32,290 nt of DNA from a virus. Positions 10,896 to 31,913 of the stretch are shown one piece after another. The DNA lies in the IMG/VR virus record IMGVR_UViG_3300047557_001948, positions 1 through 32,290 of that record; one strand, written 5' to 3'. Below the pieces are notes generated by a model. The model saw nothing but the letters and a program-made list of their open reading frames with translations, was not told where the DNA came from and did not search any database. The translations under genes and the position numbers were made by a program. Position 1 is the stretch's first letter; every line of letters starts with the position of its first letter.

Positions 10896-10924
10896 TTGAC
10901 AACCGTGAGCAACACTGATATAAT
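10896..10924 (+). promoter_or_regulatory. Consensus sigma70 promoter; predicted leaderless start
   Basis: TTGACA (10896-10901), exactly 17 bases, then TATAAT (10919-10924), a full match to consensus, followed by GG. The ATG of the primase gene is at 10931, 7 bases after the -10, where transcription should begin; no SD fits in between. It starts one base after the previous stop codon. Confidence 0.8.
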
Positions 10925-10930
10925 GGACAC

Positions 10931-23070: not shown

Positions 23071-23963
23071 ATAACGATAAACCATACGTTGACCGACCAT
23101 ATTTACAATTTACACTTTTAGAGTGGTTTGTAGCATTCTGCCTACTGTTTTTCATGGTAGTTCAATCGTCGGAAGCAAAACCACGTACACAGAAAAAACA
23201 TGCAGTTGAAACATACGGCACATTATCTGTGATGGTGACAAATATATCCGAAGATGTAATTGTACGTAAACAGAATATTGATCAAATTCGTGCATTGGCA
23301 AGTGTGACAAAACTCATGACAGCAATGATTGCATTAGATCATGATATGAATATGAATCGTAAGCTACAATTGAGCAACAAGGCAGGCAGTCGTATGCCCA
23401 AACGTGAATATACACGTGGAGAATTGTTTCATATGCTATTGATCAAGAGTGACAATGCAGCAGCAGAGACACTAGCGGCAGATTACCCAGGTGGTCGTGA
23501 AAAATTTATACGTGATATGAATGTTCGTGCCATGATGTTGAATATGTACAGTACAAATTTTGATGACCCATCAGGTTTGAGTTCTGGCAATGTGAGTACA
23601 GCAAGTGACGTAACTTCAATGGTAGTTGCTGCATCACATTATCCAGACATACGAGAAATTTCAGTTAAAAAAACTGCGCCTATTTTGACACAGGTCAAAC
23701 GTAAAAACAGAATAGTTGTTCTACATAATACGAACACTATTTTATTATCACAAATTAATGGTGTTCAAGTAAGTAAGACCGGGTTTACTAACCCAGCAGG
23801 ATTTTGTGTAGCCATGTTGGTAGAAAAGCATAGGGGTGATATTTTACAGCATGAGGTAATCGTTGTTATGGGCGCACGAAATCCTGCACAGAGAGTTGAC
23901 ACTGTGAAACGAGTAGTGTATAATGGTACTGAAGGAGATAATTATGAGCCGAGCAGAATTTAA
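23067..23963 (+). CDS. D-alanyl-D-alanine carboxypeptidase (S11/DacA-type)
   Basis: 298 residues. N-terminal hydrophobic helix (LEWFVAFCLLFFMVVQSSEA) as signal or anchor. The three penicillin-binding motifs are present: SVTK (79-82), SDN (128-130) and KTG (237-239). It removes the terminal D-Ala from peptidoglycan stem peptides. It lacks the C-terminal domain and amphipathic anchor of PBP5, so it resembles short PBP7-like enzymes. It is coupled by ATGA to a small membrane peptide. A phage could use it to alter the wall against competitors or help lysis. Confidence 0.9.
   Translation: MNNDKPYVDRPYLQFTLLEWFVAFCLLFFMVVQSSEAKPRTQKKHAVETYGTLSVMVTNISEDVIVRKQNIDQIRALASVTKLMTAMIALDHDMNMNRKLQLSNKAGSRMPKREYTRGELFHMLLIKSDNAAAETLAADYPGGREKFIRDMNVRAMMLNMYSTNFDDPSGLSSGNVSTASDVTSMVVAASHYPDIREISVKKTAPILTQVKRKNRIVVLHNTNTILLSQINGVQVSKTGFTNPAGFCVAMLVEKHRGDILQHEVIVVMGARNPAQRVDTVKRVVYNGTEGDNYEPSRI
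23896..23924 (+). promoter_or_regulatory. Consensus sigma70 promoter inside the carboxypeptidase gene
   Basis: TTGACA (23896-23901), 17 bases, TATAAT (23919-23924), followed by GG. It reads into the small gene at 23944; the SD AAGGAG begins at about the predicted transcription start, giving a 12-13 base leader. Confidence 0.75.
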
Positions 23964-25658: not shown

Positions 25659-25663
25659 AATAC

Positions 25664-25692
25664 TTGACAAGTAAACCTCATTCTTGTATACT
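25664..25692 (+). promoter_or_regulatory. Early-type promoter, CTTGACAAGT family (copy 1)
   Basis: TTGACA (25664-25669), 17 bases, TATACT (25687-25692), then GG. The -35 is inside CTTGACAAGT, an inverted repeat around one A. The leader holds ATG AGA AAG TGA (25702-25713), a three-residue upstream open frame, before the gene at 25722. Confidence 0.75.
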
Positions 25693-25721
25693 GGAACTGT
25701 GATGAGAAAGTGAGTTAAGAA

Positions 25722-25991
25722 ATGAGTAAGATTGTCAAAATTGATATAACAGAAGCATGTGGCTGGATCGGTATGGTGTTGATTCATGCTGCTACATTAC
25801 CAACAAGTCTGGGTGTGATTCTTGGATACACTGATAGGCTTCCACCACTAAGCATGGTGTTGATGGTGTGGAGTGGATTGTTTCTGTTTCTGGTTCGTGC
25901 GTTAGGTAGAAACGACAAATTATACATAATTAGCAACGCTGTCGGTTTCTTCTTTAACAGTGTATTGTTGGCATTGATTGTTTTTAAATAA
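25722..25991 (+). CDS. Small membrane protein, possibly SemiSWEET/PQ-loop-like
   Basis: 89 residues, three predicted helices: GWIGMVLIHAATLPTSLGVI, then LSMVLMVWSGLFLFLVRALG, then YIISNAVGFFFNSVLLALIV. The Pro in the first helix, the Arg/Asn-containing last helix and the length recall half-SWEET sugar transporters, but similarity is not strong. Its own promoter lies upstream; the SD is weak (AAGAA). Confidence 0.6.
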   Translation: MSKIVKIDITEACGWIGMVLIHAATLPTSLGVILGYTDRLPPLSMVLMVWSGLFLFLVRALGRNDKLYIISNAVGFFFNSVLLALIVFK

Positions 25992-26002
25992 TGGAGAATG
26001 TG

Positions 26003-26197
26003 ATGAGTTATTATGGTATGTTCACAGAAAATGGTAATCGTGTAATTGATGCAATTGTGTCTGTCGCAAAAGATTACAATTATTCTTGGGAGTGTGTAAG
26101 TGAGATACTTACCAAAATCTCAGAGATAGAGGGTTTCGGTGAAGCGACTGATACTGCGGTTCGTGAATATGTTTATGAAGCAATGGAGGGTGTGTGA
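26003..26197 (+). CDS. Small acidic early-type protein
   Basis: 64 residues from the ATG at 26003 (SD GGAG; an ATG at 25991 overlaps the previous stop). Helical, acidic (GNRVIDAIVSVAKDYNYSWE, and ATDTAVREYVYEAMEGV). Overlaps the next ATG by 1 base (TGATG). No family recognised. Confidence 0.6.
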   Translation: MSYYGMFTENGNRVIDAIVSVAKDYNYSWECVSEILTKISEIEGFGEATDTAVREYVYEAMEGV

Positions 26198-26427
26198 TGA
26201 GTAATTTAACATGGGAAATGCAAGCCTACGGTGCGCCTAAGGCTGAGATTCTTGAATCGATTGAAGATTCACTTACGTTTAAAATGTCTGGCATTGGTAT
26301 GGTGATTGCATCATATTTGTCCGATGCACAAGAACTGATTGAGTTTAACGACAAAAATCGTGCCCGTCAATATATTAATATTGCAAAGATGTTGATTTTC
26401 GAACAAATGGAGGCTGAAGTAGAATGA
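26197..26427 (+). CDS. Small helical early-type protein
   Basis: 76 residues, SD GGAGGG. Three helices (EILESIEDSLTFKMSGIGMV, ASYLSDAQELIEF, RARQYINIAKMLIFEQME). Proteins of this length and pattern occur in early regions of T4-like phages. Overlaps the next gene by 4 bases. Function unknown. Confidence 0.6.
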   Translation: MSNLTWEMQAYGAPKAEILESIEDSLTFKMSGIGMVIASYLSDAQELIEFNDKNRARQYINIAKMLIFEQMEAEVE

Positions 26428-26510
26428 TGCAATACATTTTCTCATTCATTGGAGTGGTCGTCATTGCGGCGGCCATTTATTGTTTGGAACGCATAAAAAA
26501 TGATGTATGA
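26424..26510 (+). CDS. 28-residue membrane peptide
   Basis: MMQYIFSFIGVVVIAAAIY and a short charged end: one transmembrane helix. ATGA overlap with the previous gene and 11-base overlap with the next. Fills an otherwise unused 70 bases. Function unknown. Confidence 0.5.
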   Translation: MMQYIFSFIGVVVIAAAIYCLERIKNDV

Positions 26511-26733
26511 TGAACCATTTTACATTGTAGCGGGCACAAGAAAAGAATTTGAAGATTTTGTAATGCGTAAAAATATGATGGGTATCTACTACAATTGGAA
26601 ATATGTGTGGAACGCTGATACGCTACGTGGGCTTCAGCGCCTCCGTGGCTTTTATATCGGCAGTTACGAAGAACATGAAGATTGGAGTGCCATACAAGAT
26701 GTTATCAAAATAATAAAATCCAAAGGTGGATGA
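26500..26733 (+). CDS. Small aromatic-rich phage protein
   Basis: 77 residues; two adjacent ATGs (26500 and 26503). Trp/Tyr-rich and positively charged at the end (FYIVAGTRKEFEDFVMRKNM, RGFYIGSYEEHEDWSAI). Looks like a compact alpha/beta fold. Ends 1 base before a promoter. No family recognised. Confidence 0.55.
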   Translation: MMYDEPFYIVAGTRKEFEDFVMRKNMMGIYYNWKYVWNADTLRGLQRLRGFYIGSYEEHEDWSAIQDVIKIIKSKGG

Positions 26734-26734
26734 C

Positions 26735-26763
26735 TTGACAAGTTATTTGTTTTCTGTTATGAT
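26735..26763 (+). promoter_or_regulatory. Early-type promoter, CTTGACAAGT family (copy 2)
   Basis: TTGACA (26735-26740), 17 bases, TATGAT (26758-26763), then GG; CTTGACAAGT at the -35. The gene at 26793 follows with SD TAGGAG. Confidence 0.7.
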
Positions 26764-26792
26764 GGTTATTGTTTTCTTGATAGGAGTGTAAA

Positions 26793-26981
26793 ATGAGTGC
26801 CCCAGGTCTTACTGAAGAAGAAATTAACATTTTAGCAAAAGAAATTGCTGATGCTACCTTGACCGATTATGTCGATGATGAGTGTGAGGCAATGTTTGAT
26901 GCATTGTATGCTGAACACGAGGCAATGATGTATGCTGCCAATTCATATGACCTTGATGCAATTGCATATGGTGAGATGTAA
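26793..26981 (+). CDS. Small acidic protein
   Basis: 62 residues, strong SD, own promoter. Very acidic (net strongly negative: TEEEINILAKEIADATL, YVDDECEAMFDALYAEHEA). Acidic early proteins can mimic DNA or bind host enzymes, but nothing here proves that. Stop overlaps the next ATG by 1 base. Confidence 0.6.
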   Translation: MSAPGLTEEEINILAKEIADATLTDYVDDECEAMFDALYAEHEAMMYAANSYDLDAIAYGEM

Positions 26982-27217
26982 TGAAGTTATGTAAGGACTG
27001 CAAATACTTTACCGAAGCCTCTAATAAAGAGGCTTTTTGTTTACACTCAGAATCGGTAATGTATGATGATCCAATATATGGTGAACATTCACGAAGAACT
27101 TGTCGTGATATGCGATTGGGCGGACCTGACCGCACTGCACCGTGTGGTAGATACGGCAAGCTATTTGTTGCCGTTGCTGGATTCGTACCTCAAATTATAA
27201 GTGAGGAAATGAAATGA
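26981..27217 (+). CDS. Cys-rich zinc-binding small protein
   Basis: 78 residues. CKDCKYF, then FCLH and TCRDMRLGGPDRTAPCGRYG: five or six Cys arranged like the small Cys-rich phage/bacterial proteins of unknown function that bind zinc. Codons for EASNKEAF form a perfect terminator-like hairpin (27014-27042) 35 bases into the gene. ATGA overlap with the next gene. Confidence 0.65.
   Translation: MKLCKDCKYFTEASNKEAFCLHSESVMYDDPIYGEHSRRTCRDMRLGGPDRTAPCGRYGKLFVAVAGFVPQIISEEMK
27014..27042 (+). terminator. Intragenic terminator-like hairpin (possible attenuator)
   Basis: Arms AAGCCTCT / AGAGGCTT (8 bp) with loop AATAA, followed by TTTGTTT. It lies inside a coding region, 34 bases after its start codon. 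When ribosomes follow RNA polymerase closely the stem would not form, so it could couple transcription of the downstream genes to translation. Confidence 0.55.
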
Positions 27218-27381
27218 GACAATTTTTTACAAGCAAAGAAGAATATTTGGCAGTATTGAATGCCGAACGTGAGATACTACTACGATTTTATTATAAACCA
27301 GATGAGTCGGCTACAGGATATTACAATACAGCCGCATCGGTTTTAGCAGAGCGCATCAAAGAATTAGAAGAACAAAAATGA
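27214..27381 (+). CDS. Small helical protein
   Basis: 55 residues, ATGA overlaps on both sides. MRQFFTSKEEYLAVLNAERE, then RFYYKPDESATGYYN and a helical end (AASVLAERIKELEEQ). The pattern is that of a short coiled coil. Function unknown. Confidence 0.55.
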   Translation: MRQFFTSKEEYLAVLNAEREILLRFYYKPDESATGYYNTAASVLAERIKELEEQK

Positions 27382-27617
27382 GATATTGGACCATCTGTTA
27401 TCCTGCGCCTCATCCTACACAAGATTTTGATATCTGTGTGTGGGAAACACTATCCGATCAAGAAATAATAGATTATTATTGGGACTGGTGGTCGGGTAAA
27501 ATGTTGGCTGAAGGTCCCAATGATTCATGCACATTTGAGAATTGTATCATTGATTGGTGCATTGTACATTGGGCGGAGCGTAATCATTGGCGTGAGATGA
27601 AGGAATATTATGAGTGA
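27378..27617 (+). CDS. Trp-rich small phage protein
   Basis: 79 residues with nine Trp and four Cys (IDYYWDWWSGKM, CIIDWCIVHWAERNHW). Such composition is unusual; similar W-rich small proteins appear in other T4-like phages. Overlaps the next gene by 8 bases. Function unknown. Confidence 0.6.
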   Translation: MRYWTICYPAPHPTQDFDICVWETLSDQEIIDYYWDWWSGKMLAEGPNDSCTFENCIIDWCIVHWAERNHWREMKEYYE

Positions 27618-28002
27618 TATTGAGAATGATATTGCCGAACGTAAACGTGCAATATTTGATTTGATTGAACACAATGAAATGTTAGATGATGACGGCTATC
27701 CGACCGATGCTGCATTAGATGTCATTCGACTATGGCATTGGGATAATGCAAAAGGCTGGTTCAAGTTTATCGAAGGTCTTTGGCATTTTCATAGTTGGGG
27801 TTGGAGAGAAGATGACGAGGCACATGAATATCTAAAAGATGAAATTGTGCGGAGATATTACGTTTCGACCTGTGGTTGGTCTGGTAATGAATCAATCATT
27901 CGTGCTATGCAAGAAAATAAAAGTATGATGTGGACACTGACCTGGGTACAATCACGCCGTGGTGGTCATTATATTTTTGAACTGAGGGAGATTCATCAAT
28001 GA
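27610..28002 (+). CDS. Conserved phage protein of unknown function
   Basis: 130 residues. A central motif (DDDGYPTDAALDVIRLWHWD, then GLWHFHSWGWREDD) is conserved in many T4-like and other phages. Trp/His-rich core suggests a compact fold with a possible ligand site. ATGA overlap with the next gene. No function established. Confidence 0.65.
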   Translation: MSDIENDIAERKRAIFDLIEHNEMLDDDGYPTDAALDVIRLWHWDNAKGWFKFIEGLWHFHSWGWREDDEAHEYLKDEIVRRYYVSTCGWSGNESIIRAMQENKSMMWTLTWVQSRRGGHYIFELREIHQ

Positions 28003-28163
28003 ATGAAGATGATTTAGTGTACCGCCTACGCAAACGTGCTGAGATACGCCGTCAGATACCAGGACGCAAATCTGTGGAAGAGGGCAAGCCCGACCGTATT
28101 GCCGACTTGTTGGAAGAGGCGGCAATTGAAATTGAACGGCTGCGTGAGCCAAAGAATAAATAA
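27999..28163 (+). CDS. Small basic coiled-coil protein
   Basis: 54 residues. Arg-rich N-terminus (YRLRKRAEIRRQIPGRK) and a helix (DRIADLLEEAAIEIERLRE) of a type often found in short phage early proteins. ATGA overlap upstream. GC-richer codons than its neighbours (CGC, CGT, GAG). Confidence 0.55.
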   Translation: MNEDDLVYRLRKRAEIRRQIPGRKSVEEGKPDRIADLLEEAAIEIERLREPKNK

Positions 28164-28196
28164 TGATATGATTCGGCGATAAACCAATCCATATCA
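28164..28196 (+). other. Hairpin just before the next start codon
   Basis: TGATATG and CATATCA pair, with ATT..AAT and GG/CC continuing through small bulges around loop CGATAAA. It occupies the whole gap before the ATG at 28200, which has no visible SD. Confidence 0.45.
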
Positions 28197-28199
28197 ATC

Positions 28200-28403
28200 A
28201 TGTCAGACCCAAAAGAAGAACTCAAAAAACACAGACCCAAAAAGAAAAAACTTGCAGTACCAGCCGAATTTCTACAAGAAGCAAAATCATATGATGACAA
28301 ATTAGTTTTGGTGAAAACACTGACCGAAATGGAAAAAGGTCGTGTGCTGTTGATCATTCGTGGTATGCTGGCTGATGCTGTAAAAGCCAGAGACAAAAAA
28401 TGA
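28200..28403 (+). CDS. Small basic/helical protein
   Basis: 67 residues. Lys-rich start (KKHRPKKKKLAVPAEF) and two helices (YDDKLVLVKTLTEMEKGRVL, IIRGMLADAVKARDK). No SD; the gap before it is a hairpin. ATGA overlap with the next gene. Function unknown; nucleic-acid binding is possible. Confidence 0.55.
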   Translation: MSDPKEELKKHRPKKKKLAVPAEFLQEAKSYDDKLVLVKTLTEMEKGRVLLIIRGMLADAVKARDKK

Positions 28404-28663
28404 AACAACTGCTGGAGATATTACCGAAACTGTTGGGCATGATGCCCGAACTGGTCAAGTATATCAAATATATTCCCATTCTAATGATATTGGCAGGTGT
28501 AGGATATGGTGCATACTATGTGACACAAAACTACAAAGACCCATACAAGTGTTATAATAATCAGTTATTCAAACAAAAATCTATCGATTCAAATGTTTAT
28601 ATTTTCGTTGGTGAGGTGTGCATAGATGGCAATGAGAAACCTATTCCTGAAACTGAAAACTAG
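28400..28663 (+). CDS. Single-pass membrane protein with periplasmic tail
   Basis: 87 residues. Amphipathic start, one transmembrane helix (YIPILMILAGVGYGAYYV), then an extracytoplasmic-type domain with two Cys (YKCYNNQLF, GEVCIDGNE). Overlaps the next gene by 38 bases. Possibly a superinfection-exclusion or envelope protein; unproven. Confidence 0.55.
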   Translation: MKQLLEILPKLLGMMPELVKYIKYIPILMILAGVGYGAYYVTQNYKDPYKCYNNQLFKQKSIDSNVYIFVGEVCIDGNEKPIPETEN

Positions 28664-28847
28664 AACGGATTCCGTCATAGTTTTCATAGCATATATTTCC
28701 CTGTTCGTCGCATCGGCTACTGCCTACACAATTATACGTGATAAGCGCCTGGCTGCCGAGGAATATTGTGAAAATCATCGTGGCATTCTATTCACCGACC
28801 GTGCTGGTGAGTATATTTGCATCAAAGAAAAATCCATAGTAAAATGA
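28626..28847 (+). CDS. Single-pass membrane protein with two-Cys tail
   Basis: 73 residues. Basic start, one helix (VIVFIAYISLFVASATAYTI), then a tail with CENHRGILFTDRAGEYIC. The layout parallels the preceding protein (helix, then a two-Cys module), so the two may be partners or distant duplicates. ATGA overlap with the next small gene. Confidence 0.55.
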   Translation: MAMRNLFLKLKTRTDSVIVFIAYISLFVASATAYTIIRDKRLAAEEYCENHRGILFTDRAGEYICIKEKSIVK

Positions 28848-28921
28848 CAATTGTTGCGATTGCACAATGTGCTATCATTTTGCTATGTATTGTCATTTTA
28901 GTAAGCTTCCCAGATATTTAA
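28844..28921 (+). CDS. 25-residue membrane peptide
   Basis: MTIVAIAQCAIILLCIVILV and a short end: almost entirely hydrophobic. ATGA overlap upstream; ends just before a promoter. Supported only by overlap and composition. Confidence 0.45.
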   Translation: MTIVAIAQCAIILLCIVILVSFPDI

Positions 28922-28928
28922 AAAAACC

Positions 28929-28957
28929 TTGACAAGTAAACCGAAATGCCTCATAAT
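28929..28957 (+). promoter_or_regulatory. Early-type promoter, CTTGACAAGT family (copy 3)
   Basis: TTGACA (28929-28934), 17 bases, CATAAT (28952-28957), then GG. The -35 is in CTTGACAAGTAAACC, identical over 15 bases to copy 1. The gene at 28987 has SD AAGGAG. Confidence 0.7.
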
Positions 28958-28986
28958 GGTTGCATAGTGATTGAGAAGGAGATTAT

Positions 28987-29151
28987 ATGAAAATTCAATG
29001 TCAAAATGTAGCAGGAGGCTGGCAAACCAGCGTAGTCGAAACTGGTTATCTGTTCGGTCCGGTGTTCAATAAAATCACCGACTTGTGGGATTGGCAGCGT
29101 GAAAATCTGTTTGGTGTTGTTGATGGTTATGTTATGCGGGAGGTAGCATGA
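28987..29151 (+). CDS. Small early-type protein
   Basis: 54 residues, own promoter and good SD. MKIQCQNVAGGWQTSVVETG and WDWQRENLFGVVDGYVMREV; beta-rich. ATGA overlap with the next gene. No family recognised. Confidence 0.6.
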   Translation: MKIQCQNVAGGWQTSVVETGYLFGPVFNKITDLWDWQRENLFGVVDGYVMREVA

Positions 29152-29375
29152 GAGTAGCACATAATTATGGTAAAGTTCGTATTGTGCATGATGGTAGCCC
29201 ATTTGATGTAGCATACGATATTCGAGTCGAATGGCTCAAAAATGATGAGTGGGTGACGTATCGTGGTTTCAATAGTCTGAGCGACGATTATGCAAATACC
29301 AATGCATCCGAGGCAGCCGGTCGTGCAATAGCAATTCTTGCTGCTGAGGCTGCCGCTAACTTGCCAGGAGTGTAA
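29148..29375 (+). CDS. Small early-type protein
   Basis: 75 residues; beta-rich front (HNYGKVRIVHDGSPFDVAYD) and an Ala-rich helical end (SEAAGRAIAILAAEAAANLP). SD GGGAGG. Ends one base before the next ATG. Function unknown. Confidence 0.6.
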   Translation: MRVAHNYGKVRIVHDGSPFDVAYDIRVEWLKNDEWVTYRGFNSLSDDYANTNASEAAGRAIAILAAEAAANLPGV

Positions 29376-29376
29376 A

Positions 29377-29535
29377 ATGGACAAAGTATTCATTGTAGTC
29401 GAACCTGTACCCTATGAGGGCGACACCGTTCTCCGTGTATTCACCAAATACGATGATGCAATAGCATATGGGCATGAATTGTATGCCGAAGGTGCTATTG
29501 AGGAATTCGATGTATATGAGCGTGAATTGTACTAA
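29377..29535 (+). CDS. Small acidic early-type protein
   Basis: 52 residues from the ATG at 29377 (SD CAGGAG). Beta-alpha pattern (DKVFIVVEPVPYEGDTVLRV, then YDDAIAYGHELYAEG). Acidic, no Cys. Followed by 62 A-rich bases without a gene. Function unknown. Confidence 0.6.
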   Translation: MDKVFIVVEPVPYEGDTVLRVFTKYDDAIAYGHELYAEGAIEEFDVYERELY

Positions 29536-29597
29536 AAAACAGTAAAAAATCCATAAAAACGCAAAAAATAAGCACAAAATCAATATGGAGATGAATC

Positions 29598-29768
29598 ATG
29601 AGTGATGGAGTTACCATTGTATTTTTCGTACTTTTTACATTTATTGGTGCCCTTTTTGGACACAATATTGGTGCAAGTACAGCAAACAAGGCCATAGCCG
29701 AATGTGAAAAAACCCTGCCACGTAACGTACAATGTACAATCATTGCTGTACCGGTAGACAAGAACTAA
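29598..29768 (+). CDS. Single-helix membrane protein
   Basis: 56 residues, SD TGGAG. N-terminal helix (VTIVFFVLFTFIGALFGHNI), then a short conserved-looking tail (AIAECEKTLPRNVQCTIIAV) with two Cys, probably periplasmic. Similar proteins occur in T4-like phage early regions. Function unknown. Confidence 0.6.
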   Translation: MSDGVTIVFFVLFTFIGALFGHNIGASTANKAIAECEKTLPRNVQCTIIAVPVDKN

Positions 29769-29769
29769 T

Positions 29770-30093
29770 ATGAACTACCACGCCCACGTATACTGGAAAA
29801 ACAATGCTGAACGGGAGATAGCCATATCCATGCGTCCATCGTTCCTATCAATGGGTGCGAGCCTGGGTGCAATCCATGACCGTCCCATAGGTCCGCATCC
29901 ACTGCCCATGTATCAGATAATGTATGACACTCCAATCCAGACTGAAGTTGAAACACTGCTGAGAATTCAGCCGATGTCAATTCTACTTCATGAGGACATA
30001 GGCATTGATCATGTAAAAGACCACACTGACGGTGCCAGATGGATCAATACACCACTAGAATTAGACTTACAATTTCTGGAGAATTTTGAATGA
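29770..30093 (+). CDS. DOPA 4,5-dioxygenase-family protein
   Basis: 107 residues. The N-terminal NYHAHVYW, the AIHDRPIGPHPLPMYQIMY signature, and SILLHEDIGIDHVKDHTDGARW reproduce the spacing of His residues in the DOPA 4,5-dioxygenase family (His6/His8, His42 region, LLHE, DH). The full family domain is about 105 residues, so it is complete. Bacterial members act on small catechols or are uncharacterised; the phage substrate is unknown. It overlaps the next gene by ATGA. Confidence 0.78.
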   Translation: MNYHAHVYWKNNAEREIAISMRPSFLSMGASLGAIHDRPIGPHPLPMYQIMYDTPIQTEVETLLRIQPMSILLHEDIGIDHVKDHTDGARWINTPLELDLQFLENFE

Positions 30094-30320
30094 GCCTTCT
30101 ACCCTGTCCACAGTGTAATTCCGAGGCTGAGATATTCTCCACGGGTACACTAGAATGCTACGGCTGGGCATGGCAGACTTATGGAGTAAGATGTAAAGAT
30201 ACCAATGGCAAACACTGTGGTATGGAAATAAGCATGAATGCCGACTTTTTCTATGTAGAACTACATGATGGACATTGGGAAGAGATATGGAATAATCTAC
30301 CAGTAAGGGCAAAGATATGA
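30090..30320 (+). CDS. Lar-like small zinc protein (possible restriction alleviation)
   Basis: 76 residues. CPQCNSEAEI, then VRC and HCG, and a late EEIWNNLP: this is the layout of Lar-type restriction-alleviation and related small phage zinc proteins. Lar proteins moderate type I restriction of incoming DNA. Length matches. The similarity is by pattern only; other phage zinc ribbons share it. Confidence 0.5.
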   Translation: MSLLPCPQCNSEAEIFSTGTLECYGWAWQTYGVRCKDTNGKHCGMEISMNADFFYVELHDGHWEEIWNNLPVRAKI

Positions 30321-30529
30321 ATGAGCGAATTCGAGAACTGTATTATCAATGTCAAGATGAAAGTCTAAGTACAGAGGAGTGCTATCATAACTTTGCCGAG
30401 TTGATTGTCCGAGAATGTGTAAAAGTGATGTATGATAATGCTATAGAACGAAAAGTTCCACCCGATATCAACCAAACACCTACACATTATGCTATTGCTG
30501 TATTAGAACATTTCGGAGTTGACCAATGA
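30317..30529 (+). CDS. Small phage protein, paralogue A
   Basis: 70 residues (MNERIRELYYQCQDESLSTE, and NFAELIVRECVKVMYDNA). It shares its start (MNERI.EL) and the FAE.I..ECV motif with the next gene, so the two are tandem paralogues. ATGA overlaps on both sides. Such proteins are common in T4-like phages; function unknown. Confidence 0.6.
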   Translation: MNERIRELYYQCQDESLSTEECYHNFAELIVRECVKVMYDNAIERKVPPDINQTPTHYAIAVLEHFGVDQ

Positions 30530-30798
30530 ACGAGCGAATAAAAGAACTAGCCACGCAAATCGGCATTGATGTAAACTACCTCACTAACACCAAACAAATC
30601 GTGCTAATCGAAAAGTTTGCCGAATCAATAATTCTAGAGTGTGTAGCCTGCTGTGGCTCACAAGCCGACAAGAAAAACATACGCTATCGATTCGGTCTAC
30701 CCATAGAATCGGATGTACAATACGAAGCACCACCAGTGTATAATTCAATCACTAGTCAATACACAAGAAAATACAATCTACCTGGCAGCGACAATTGA
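30526..30798 (+). CDS. Small phage protein, paralogue B
   Basis: 90 residues; paralogue of the preceding gene over its first 50 residues (MNERIKELATQIGIDVNYLT, KFAESIILECVACCG), then a distinct tail (RYRFGLPIESDVQYEAPPV). Ends inside the start of a repeat array. Function unknown. Confidence 0.6.
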   Translation: MNERIKELATQIGIDVNYLTNTKQIVLIEKFAESIILECVACCGSQADKKNIRYRFGLPIESDVQYEAPPVYNSITSQYTRKYNLPGSDN

Positions 30799-30848
30799 GC
30801 GACAGATTGAGCGACAGAGAGCGACAGAGAGAGCGACAGAGAGCGACA
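30786..30848 (+). repeat. Tandem AGCGACA repeats with a 22-bp period
   Basis: Five GAGCGACA copies start at 30797, 30809, 30819, 30831 and 30841 (spacings 12, 10, 12, 10), giving a 22-bp unit repeated two and a half times; a sixth partial copy is at 30786. It ends 6 bases before the MazG-like start codon and contains GAGAG tracts that could serve as weak SDs. Confidence 0.75.
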
Positions 30849-30854
30849 AATAAT

Positions 30855-31103
30855 ATGAAACCAATAGCCGAAATTCTCACAATCTTACAGGAAGAGTGTG
30901 CCGAAGTAATTCAGATTGCCTCAAAAATACACCGCTTTGGTCATCATCCCGACAATATGAAAAGACTAGCAGAAGAACTGGGCGACCTACAGTGTATGAT
31001 AGAATTATGCATAGAACACCAACTGGTCGATGAAACAAAACTGCAAATATACAGTAAAGACAAAAGAGAAAAACTGAGAACGTGGAGCACAATACCACTG
31101 TAA
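30855..31103 (+). CDS. MazG-like nucleotide pyrophosphohydrolase
   Basis: 82 residues from the ATG at 30855; an in-frame TTG at 30795 would add 20 residues coded by the repeat array (RERQRERQR-type) and is less likely. The MazG fold is indicated by LQEECAEVIQIASKI (ExxE) and RLAEELGDLQCMIEL (ExxD), the Mg-binding pair of this family. It would hydrolyse nucleoside triphosphates, perhaps (p)ppGpp-related or non-standard ones, as proposed for other phage MazG proteins. Confidence 0.75.
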   Translation: MKPIAEILTILQEECAEVIQIASKIHRFGHHPDNMKRLAEELGDLQCMIELCIEHQLVDETKLQIYSKDKREKLRTWSTIPL

Positions 31104-31281
31104 TGTGTGGGGAAGTGTGGGGGAAAGTGGGGAACGGTGTAGTTTCACATTGTGAAAAATGCGAAAATCCACTGTAACGGCGCTGGTGCAAAATACCACA
31201 ACGCCGGGCTGCACTGCCCCGCCCCCAGGCTGCTGCACCGCTGCCCAGGCTGTTGCGCTGACCCAACGCTGCAAATAATGC
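31104..31281. other. GC-rich non-coding region with G-runs, palindrome and direct repeats
   Basis: No gene is visible. It holds three G-tracts of 4-5 (31108-31134), a perfect 15-base palindrome TTTCACATTGTGAAA (31143-31157), a hairpin with arms CGGCG/CGCCG and inner TGGT/ACCA (about 31178-31206), and direct repeats beginning CCCAGGCTG near 31224 and 31244. GC content is clearly higher than in the rest of the window. Candidates are an origin, an untranslated RNA or an operator region. Confidence 0.6.
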
Positions 31282-31310
31282 TTGACAAGTTAACCGATAT
31301 CACCTATACT
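31282..31310 (+). promoter_or_regulatory. Early-type promoter, CTTGACAAGT family (copy 4)
   Basis: TTGACA (31282-31287), 17 bases, TATACT (31305-31310), then GG. CTTGACAAGTTAACC at the -35. A small membrane peptide gene follows at 31343 with SD TTGGAG. Confidence 0.75.
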
Positions 31311-31342
31311 GGCACTGTACTGAGATGATATTGGAGATTGAG

Positions 31343-31429
31343 ATGATTGCGATTTTGATACTGTTTGCTGCTTTGATAACGTGGGGCGCCCTGGCTGCTG
31401 CTCCTGGTGCTGTTATTACTTTGGGCTAA
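31343..31429 (+). CDS. 28-residue membrane peptide
   Basis: MIAILILFAALITWGALAAA and a short Gly/Pro end, entirely hydrophobic. It has its own promoter and a good SD, stronger evidence than for the other tiny peptides here. Codons use GCT, CTG and GGC, unlike most of the window. Function unknown. Confidence 0.6.
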   Translation: MIAILILFAALITWGALAAAPGAVITLG

Positions 31430-31433
31430 GCAA

Positions 31434-31526
31434 ATGGAACTAATTGATTGGATTTTCGTTATAGCAACACCAATTGCCTGTGTGTATATTCTGTGGGACG
31501 CTATTGTTGACAGGAGTAGAAAATGA
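31434..31526 (+). CDS. 30-residue membrane peptide
   Basis: MELIDWIFVIATPIACVYIL and a charged end (WDAIVDRSRK): one helix, positive-inside C-terminus. Four bases after the previous stop; ATGA overlap with the next gene. Function unknown. Confidence 0.5.
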   Translation: MELIDWIFVIATPIACVYILWDAIVDRSRK

Positions 31527-31684
31527 TACCAAAATCAACTTATTACAGTATTGTCTGTAAAGCAACTGGCCTGGTGACGGAAAAAGGTAGCAAAAAAGCA
31601 ATGTTGAAAGTCATGAAAGCAAAACCAGGTGTTTACTTTTTAGCACTGACCGGCCGCCCAATTGGTAGCATTTTTGCCGAATAA
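31523..31684 (+). CDS. Small basic protein
   Basis: 53 residues, SD AGGAG. Beta-alpha-beta look (TYYSIVCKATGLVTEKGSKK, then PGVYFLALTGRPIGS). Ends 5 bases before the next -35. No family recognised. Confidence 0.55.
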   Translation: MIPKSTYYSIVCKATGLVTEKGSKKAMLKVMKAKPGVYFLALTGRPIGSIFAE

Positions 31685-31689
31685 AACAC

Positions 31690-31718
31690 TTGACAAGTTT
31701 TTGGCTTGTCCCTATAAT
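31690..31718 (+). promoter_or_regulatory. Early-type promoter, CTTGACAAGT family (copy 5)
   Basis: TTGACA (31690-31695), 17 bases, TATAAT (31713-31718), then GG; a full consensus match. The gene at 31749 follows with SD GGAGG. Confidence 0.78.
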
Positions 31719-31748
31719 GGTTCTGTGCTGAATGATGTGGAGGAAAAG

Positions 31749-31913
31749 ATGTATACCTGTGATGGCAGAAAATTCAAGCGTCTGAAAACCGCTGTGGCCT
31801 ATGCTGCAAAAGCTTTTGCAAAGACCGGCGTAGTGTTGGGCATTGAGCCTGTGGTGGTGTTGAACAAGAACCCTGGTTATGTTGCTTATCTTGCGAAAGG
31901 TATGAAATTATGA
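31749..31913 (+). CDS. Small basic early-type protein
   Basis: 54 residues from the ATG at 31749; longer in-frame starts run back through the promoter. MYTCDGRKFKRLKTAVAYAA, then GVVLGIEPVVVLNKNPGYVA. Net positive, mixed alpha/beta. The shape (short beta start, helix, beta end) resembles the previous small protein. ATGA overlap with the next gene. Confidence 0.6.
   Translation: MYTCDGRKFKRLKTAVAYAAKAFAKTGVVLGIEPVVVLNKNPGYVAYLAKGMKL

Follow-up and report, generated by a model that had tools for sequence, protein, structure and literature searches.

Each of the T4-like phages T4, RB69, RB49, RB43, 44RR and Aeh1 has its own early-promoter motif; in the available part of the account that compares them, these host sigma70-type promoters, numbering in the tens, stand before novel open reading frames (ORFs) and transfer RNA (tRNA) genes, with an A-rich stretch at -40 to -44 and, in several phages, a characteristic base at -36 (PMC1524935). 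Here we describe a family of predicted promoters of this class on the virus record IMGVR_UViG_3300047557_001948. The window, the whole stretch of DNA analysed (32,290 nucleotides, positions 1 to 32,290 of that record), is also found within G001, a 172,439-bp IMG/VR contig, at approximately 2875–35164. The G001 family differs from the orthologous promoters of sister phages by two groups of bases at fixed positions.

G001 belongs to the T4 superfamily, as judged by homologues of the gp17 terminase, gp18 sheath, gp20 portal, gp23 capsid and late sigma factor gp55; the window phage is a freshwater relative of T4. Relatives of its gp23 capsid protein are found in cyanophages and in a Pelagibacter phage (up to 64% and 62%, respectively). 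A PstS homologue is nearest to Burkholderiales proteins (best 75%), a hint from which a betaproteobacterial host may be guessed.

Set against the same part of the T4-like account, the predicted family matches the T4-type early class on every testable feature: it is sigma70-type, present in many copies and placed before small novel ORFs and tRNAs, with a conserved -36 base (C-36, 15/15), an A-rich stretch (A at 6–11 of 15 sites for each position from -44 to -39) and a separate gp55 late class (PMC1524935). The bases themselves differ: G001 combines a full TTGACA with C-36, AGT and GG, whereas that source gives GTTTAC for T4 and a C at -3 to -1 for some T4-like phages (PMC1524935). T4 middle promoters likewise place a specific element close to -30, ahead of a sigma70 -10; theirs, however, is the MotA box GCTT at -30 to -27, used with AsiA, and their -35 match is slight, whereas the G001 sites have a perfect -35 and no GCTT. 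A further likeness is to the operators and stoperators of the cluster A mycobacteriophages L5, Bxb1 and Trixie, short sites that vary by lineage in step with their reader; in L5, too, the site lies over a CTTGACA -35. Stoperators, however, are scattered through the genes of temperate phages that have a repressor, and most of them share one orientation, whereas the G001 sites are promoters but for one. No repressor was found in G001.

Five predicted promoters in the window

An earlier note on this DNA had described five promoters that share CTTGACAAGT, a 17-bp spacer and a GG after the -10. All five are present as described on the + strand, with CTTGACAAGT at 25663, 26734, 28928, 31281 and 31689, each comprising TTGACA, a spacer of exactly 17 bp, a -10-like hexamer and then GG. 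Scanning with the full pattern (CTTGACAAGT, a 14-base gap, a -10-like NANNNT and GG, allowing at most one mismatch) gives five matches in the window and none for the reversed pattern used as control, and the five sites rank top among the direct repeats of the region. The sharing of CTTGACAAGTAAACC between copies 1 and 3 (P1 and P3) was likewise confirmed. The promoters and the ORFs that follow them are given below (SD, Shine–Dalgarno sequence).

25663–25694, + strand: predicted early promoter P1; C-TTGACA (25664–25669)-AGT, 17-bp spacer, TATACT (25687–25692), GG
25722–25991, + strand: 89-residue ORF after P1; 87–98% identity in relatives
26734–26765, + strand: predicted early promoter P2; C-TTGACA (26735–26740)-AGT, 17 bp, TATGAT (26758–26763), GG
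26793–26981, + strand: 62-residue ORF after P2; ATG 29 nt past the -10, SD 5/5
28928–28959, + strand: predicted early promoter P3; C-TTGACA (28929–28934)-AGTAAACC, 17 bp, CATAAT (28952–28957), GG
28987–29151, + strand: 54-residue ORF after P3; ATG 29 nt past the -10, SD 5/5
31281–31312, + strand: predicted early promoter P4; C-TTGACA (31282–31287)-AGTTAACC, 17 bp, TATACT (31305–31310), GG
31325–31429, + strand: ORF of 34 residues (or shorter) after P4; kept in four relatives
31689–31720, + strand: predicted early promoter P5; C-TTGACA (31690–31695)-AGT, 17 bp, TATAAT (31713–31718), GG; the core is a 12/12 consensus
31749–31913, + strand: 54-residue ORF after P5; ATG 30 nt past the -10

A family across the source contig

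Over G001 the full pattern has 15 matches (13 exact, two with one mismatch), all on the + strand, against none for the reversed control; each of 21 other phage records has 0 or 1. Exact CTTGACAAGT occurs 14 times where a third-order Markov model expects about 0.5. Thirteen of these copies are promoters, and the only one away from a promoter, at G001:72916, is in a gene. We set aside a family-like near-copy at G001:41362, which lies within an ORF whose coding sequence relatives conserve, and count the family as at least 14 promoters on one strand (+), all with 17-bp spacing, a larger set than the earlier note describes. Among the IMG/VR matches listed, many contigs carry the 15-base pattern a single time, which we judge to be at chance level from the pattern length and collection size. 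Of the contigs listed, only G001 and that of L205 have several matches, and over 10 kb the L205 contig and G001 are 100% identical. No contig other than G001 has the longer form, CTTGACAAGTAAACC...GG.

The members fall into three early-gene blocks of G001, at 28.5–41.7, 56.8–57.6 and 146.8–149.3 kb. The description of their targets as many tiny genes holds for the ORFs of the window and is otherwise too narrow, for the family also precedes a cluster of 23 tRNA genes (G001:41828–46371, behind the promoter at 41666) and genes for a 228-residue KOW-like protein, a 752-residue protein and a 392-residue protein. By a strict SD rule, an ORF starts 29–34 nt past the -10 at 8/14 family sites.

Bases specific to the lineage

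We profiled conservation over 15 sites, a set that includes G001:41362 (the family count of 14 leaves it out). C-36, TTGACA and A-29 do not vary; G-28 and T-27 are each found at 14/15 sites and G-6 and G-5 at 15/15, and no other spacer position exceeds 0.8 bit. Among the 14 family members, AGT occupies -29 to -27 in 13 and GG occupies -6/-5 in all.

For comparison we took unselected sites defined by CTTGACA, a 17-bp spacer and xAxxxT with at least 4/6, of which there are 17 in G001 and 74 in seven relatives. AGT is present at 13/17 G001 sites versus 4/74 in the relatives (p = 2.4e-9), and GG at 15/17 versus 13/74 (p = 6.5e-8); these p values are approximate, the relatives' sites being partly orthologous to one another. 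The flanks are conserved beyond the sigma70 core, a point that the earlier note had proposed to check by a genome scan. Its claim that the conservation extends past TTGACA stands, with the refinement that the bases specific to G001 on this comparison are GT at -28/-27 and GG at -6/-5. The leading C is clade-wide (nearly all orthologues), and so is the A that follows TTGACA (56/74 of the relatives' sites). Loss of the extended -10 TG, considered as a compensating change, was not significant (5/17 versus 34/74, p = 0.28).

Concerted change at orthologous promoters

Orthologous promoters keep C-36, TTGACA, the 17-bp spacing and the -10, beside the same neighbours, down to about 57–65% protein identity. 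The -28/-27 and -6/-5 flanks of the relatives are locus-specific: P1 has TTGACAATCTTACCG in 4/4 relatives checked, P2 has AAG and the promoter at 149301 mostly AAG. CTTGACAATC is the sister-form counterpart of CTTGACAAGT. The P1 orthologue in sister G029 reads TTGACAATC..TACTAT GA, with flank identity of 91% downstream and 86% upstream, and the P2 orthologues of four relatives have AAG in place of AGT and TA/AT in place of GG. Over 12 orthologous pairs between G001 and the nearest sister, G-28 was gained 11 times, T-27 nine times, G-5 11 times and G-6 four times, with no losses. At locus 57157, AGT and GG are already present in many relatives.

Because the surrounding sequence aligns with that of the sister at most loci, the promoters were not swapped in as cassettes, and because other spacer positions stay divergent, recent copying is unlikely. 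The nearest sister phage is about 82–88% identical to G001 in DNA, from which we take the change to be fairly recent. On this alignment evidence the bases changed in place and in concert across the family. Such convergence at fixed positions argues that a common trans-acting reader selects these bases, and one common reader probably recognises the family flanks.

The two groups of bases are partly separable, as two sigma70-type promoters of the window carry GG without AGT where the sister has GA:

10896–10926, + strand: sigma70-type promoter outside the family; TTGACA-ACC..TATAAT GG, no C/AGT; sister L010 has TATAAT GA
23896–23926, + strand: sigma70-type promoter outside the family; TTGACA-CTG..TATAAT GG; sister GA, some other relatives GG

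Phage-specific early motifs of T4-like phages are known. What is new is this particular consensus, together with the demonstration that corresponding loci in sister phages have diverged through coordinated base substitution. The available part of the T4-like account does not describe concerted in-place rewriting of early promoters between sister phages (PMC1524935), and we found nothing on point in the literature on concerted early-promoter change. With sisters differing at the same 12 promoters by the same two base groups, the question of the reader becomes directly testable, and the case would reveal the pace at which an entire regulon can be retuned, one base after another.

Candidate readers of the flanks

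We lean, by no wide measure, towards reading the family as T4-type early sigma70 promoters whose extended consensus is specific to the lineage and has been tuned to the polymerase holoenzyme. A host sigma70-type RNA polymerase would recognise them soon after infection; the lineage has converged on C-36, TTGACA, A-29 G-28 T-27, a 17-bp spacer, TATAAT and G-6 G-5, and the reader would most likely be the transcribing holoenzyme itself, host or phage-altered. GG directly past the -10 is also the arrangement of the GGG-type discriminator, which involves sigma region 1.2. A discriminator normally varies between promoters, but here it is fixed (14/14) and mostly newly acquired. G at -5 lengthens the life of the open complex 10–50 fold (PMC10911233), and G-5/G-6 would fit sigma region 1.2 and give long-lived open complexes, as established for Escherichia coli sigma70. 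Since GG at -6/-5 is this open-complex-stabilising form, reading by the polymerase is the simplest account of the GG part, and the gain of GG at the non-AGT promoters at 10896 and 23896 likewise speaks for a preference at the level of the polymerase. AGT adjoins the -35 contact on its downstream side, outside the hexamer, where it could be read by sigma region 4, a phage-altered polymerase or a bound phage protein. Early genes would then be expressed strongly, uniformly and all at once. Were the host polymerase the only reader, the finding would be an elegant case of promoter tuning but in other respects an ordinary one.

Several observations weigh against tuning to the polymerase. Specific reading of -28/-27 by sigma70 is not known, so AGT may need another protein. 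At least one promoter with the same core, G001:45046 (CTTGACA-ACG, TATAAT GT), has neither AGT nor GG, which a universal polymerase preference does not predict. T4 has the polymerase modifiers AsiA, MotA and Alt; in G001, which is possibly incomplete and whose homologues have possibly diverged, neither AsiA nor MotA nor an Alt-type ADP-ribosyltransferase was matched by PF09010, PF09158 and PF03496, models that find the T4 positive control at E = 2e-43, 7e-71 and 4e-38, respectively. We tentatively entertain, at well under even confidence, that a lineage regulator or polymerase-altering protein reads CTTGACAAGT and GG, and that a recent change in its specificity forced the early promoters to rewrite in step. 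If true, this lytic T4-like phage, which shows no sign of being temperate, would have made an immunity-group-like switch in its promoter specificity.

The earlier note had offered a common operator or a phage-modified polymerase preference, and singled out the inverted repeat over the -35. A coordinated family under common selection is upheld; the inverted repeat as the functional unit is so far not supported, given that only G-28 is new to the dyad, T-27 is unmirrored and GG has changed too. In its fullest form, the operator account has a protein of the phage or of a co-resident element, probably a small dimer, binding CTTG-A-CAAG(T) over the -35 and shutting off or staggering all early operons, its specificity having changed in the lineage and the sites having followed. 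We regard this as possible and somewhat doubtful. CTTGACAAG is a perfect 9-bp dyad at all 14 promoters, the G-28 that completes it was gained 11 times, an unconverted 45046 is what a regulon would allow, and one family operon encodes a small helix-turn-helix (HTH)-like protein. Against this, eight of the nine dyad bases pre-exist through TTGACA, C-36 and A-29, leaving a chance of about 1 in 4 for the dyad, and the newly gained T-27 has no mirror, A-37 being present at 7/14 sites versus 29/74 in relatives; together these make the palindrome argument weak. Free-standing sites are missing (the exact copies are promoters but for the one in a gene), and GG, at -6/-5 and so outside any -35 operator, moved along with AGT and also appears at non-AGT promoters. 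The asymmetry, with T-27 lacking A-37 and the register fixed relative to the -10, would suit a monomeric or polymerase-bound phage factor that reads CTTGACAAGT one way, like MotA at -30 or a cluster A repressor at its oriented stoperators; the available part of one source describes such a mycobacteriophage repressor binding an asymmetric site as a monomer (PMC9283540). We consider this unlikely: MotA and AsiA were not detected in G001, a full TTGACA at all sites makes sigma appropriation unneeded, and the single in-gene copy beyond the promoters is unlike stoperators.

Accounts that do without a reader fare far worse. Recombination-copied promoter cassettes, in which likeness reflects recent duplication and not recognition, could draw on AGTAAACC, common to copies 1 and 3 and to G001:36329 and 40249, but the rest of the spacer and the flanks are locus-specific and align with the orthologous region of the sister at most loci, and beyond the clade-wide core the sites are uniform only at -28, -27, -6 and -5; this is largely refuted and very improbable. 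Equally improbable, and refuted, is that these are ordinary strong sigma70 promoters whose flanks agree by chance or base composition. A textbook strong promoter does have TTGACA, 17 bp, TATAAT and G at -5, but the excess over same-core promoters of the relatives (p = 2e-9 for AGT, 6e-8 for GG), the concerted gains without losses and the empty reversed-pattern controls contradict it.

The HTH-like protein named in the earlier note as a possible regulator is the second gene behind P5:

31910–32044, + strand: 44-residue three-helix HTH-like protein; AlphaFold pLDDT 88.5; helices 5–16, 21–28 and 32–42

It does model as a three-helix HTH. A Pfam search gave no match, and in the PDB the model finds only weak matches, to HTH domains such as those of DeoR and Tc3 (best E = 0.47, DeoR DNA-binding domain). 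Relatives without the motif retain orthologues 52–82% identical, so nothing marks the protein out as the reader, and we treat it as a weak candidate regulator. A second candidate, as a transcription factor, is the 228-residue protein at G001:36390–37076 (L087:16390–17073), which has a weak Pfam match to KOW, a NusG-type motif, lies directly behind a family promoter and was not found in the relatives compared. A further lineage-restricted candidate regulator, encoded in the window, is a 76-residue zinc-ribbon-like protein (30090–30320), whose Pfam matches, to Lar/Ogr, are weak and which was absent from the contigs of relatives that we compared. It adjoins a DOPA-dioxygenase-like ORF (29770–30093) that is also lineage-restricted.

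Neighbouring features and a distant relative

In the distant relative G014, the minus strand of G014:15000–26000 (L110–L111) carries a separate family, made up of 15 sigma70 promoters. There GG stands directly before the -35 TTGACA (15/15 and 13/15), an extended -10 TG is frequent and ATACACATA-like starts come next. This different extension shows that phage-specific flanks occur elsewhere in the group. We rejected CTTGACTACC as a regulatory site; its 56 copies each in G014 (about 48–68 kb) and G020 (about 313–334 kb) look rather like a coding repeat, with a collagen-like Gly-X-Y-like pattern on the opposite strand.

Directly upstream of the second promoter block of G001 lies a gene for an 848-residue, extremely glycine-rich repeat protein (G001:54190–56736). 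The 392-residue gene behind a family promoter is AAA-type. The -35 of its promoter (G001:149290–149330; L093:9290–9330) sits at the centre of a GC-rich inverted repeat with a T-rich stretch after it, as it does in relatives L277–L337, for example AACCACCACTTGACAAAGTGGTGGTT in L337. The arrangement, which most relatives retain, resembles a terminator overlapping a promoter. Within the window, a short tandem run of GAGCGACAGA-like units (30797–30840) lies at the end of one ORF and ahead of the next.

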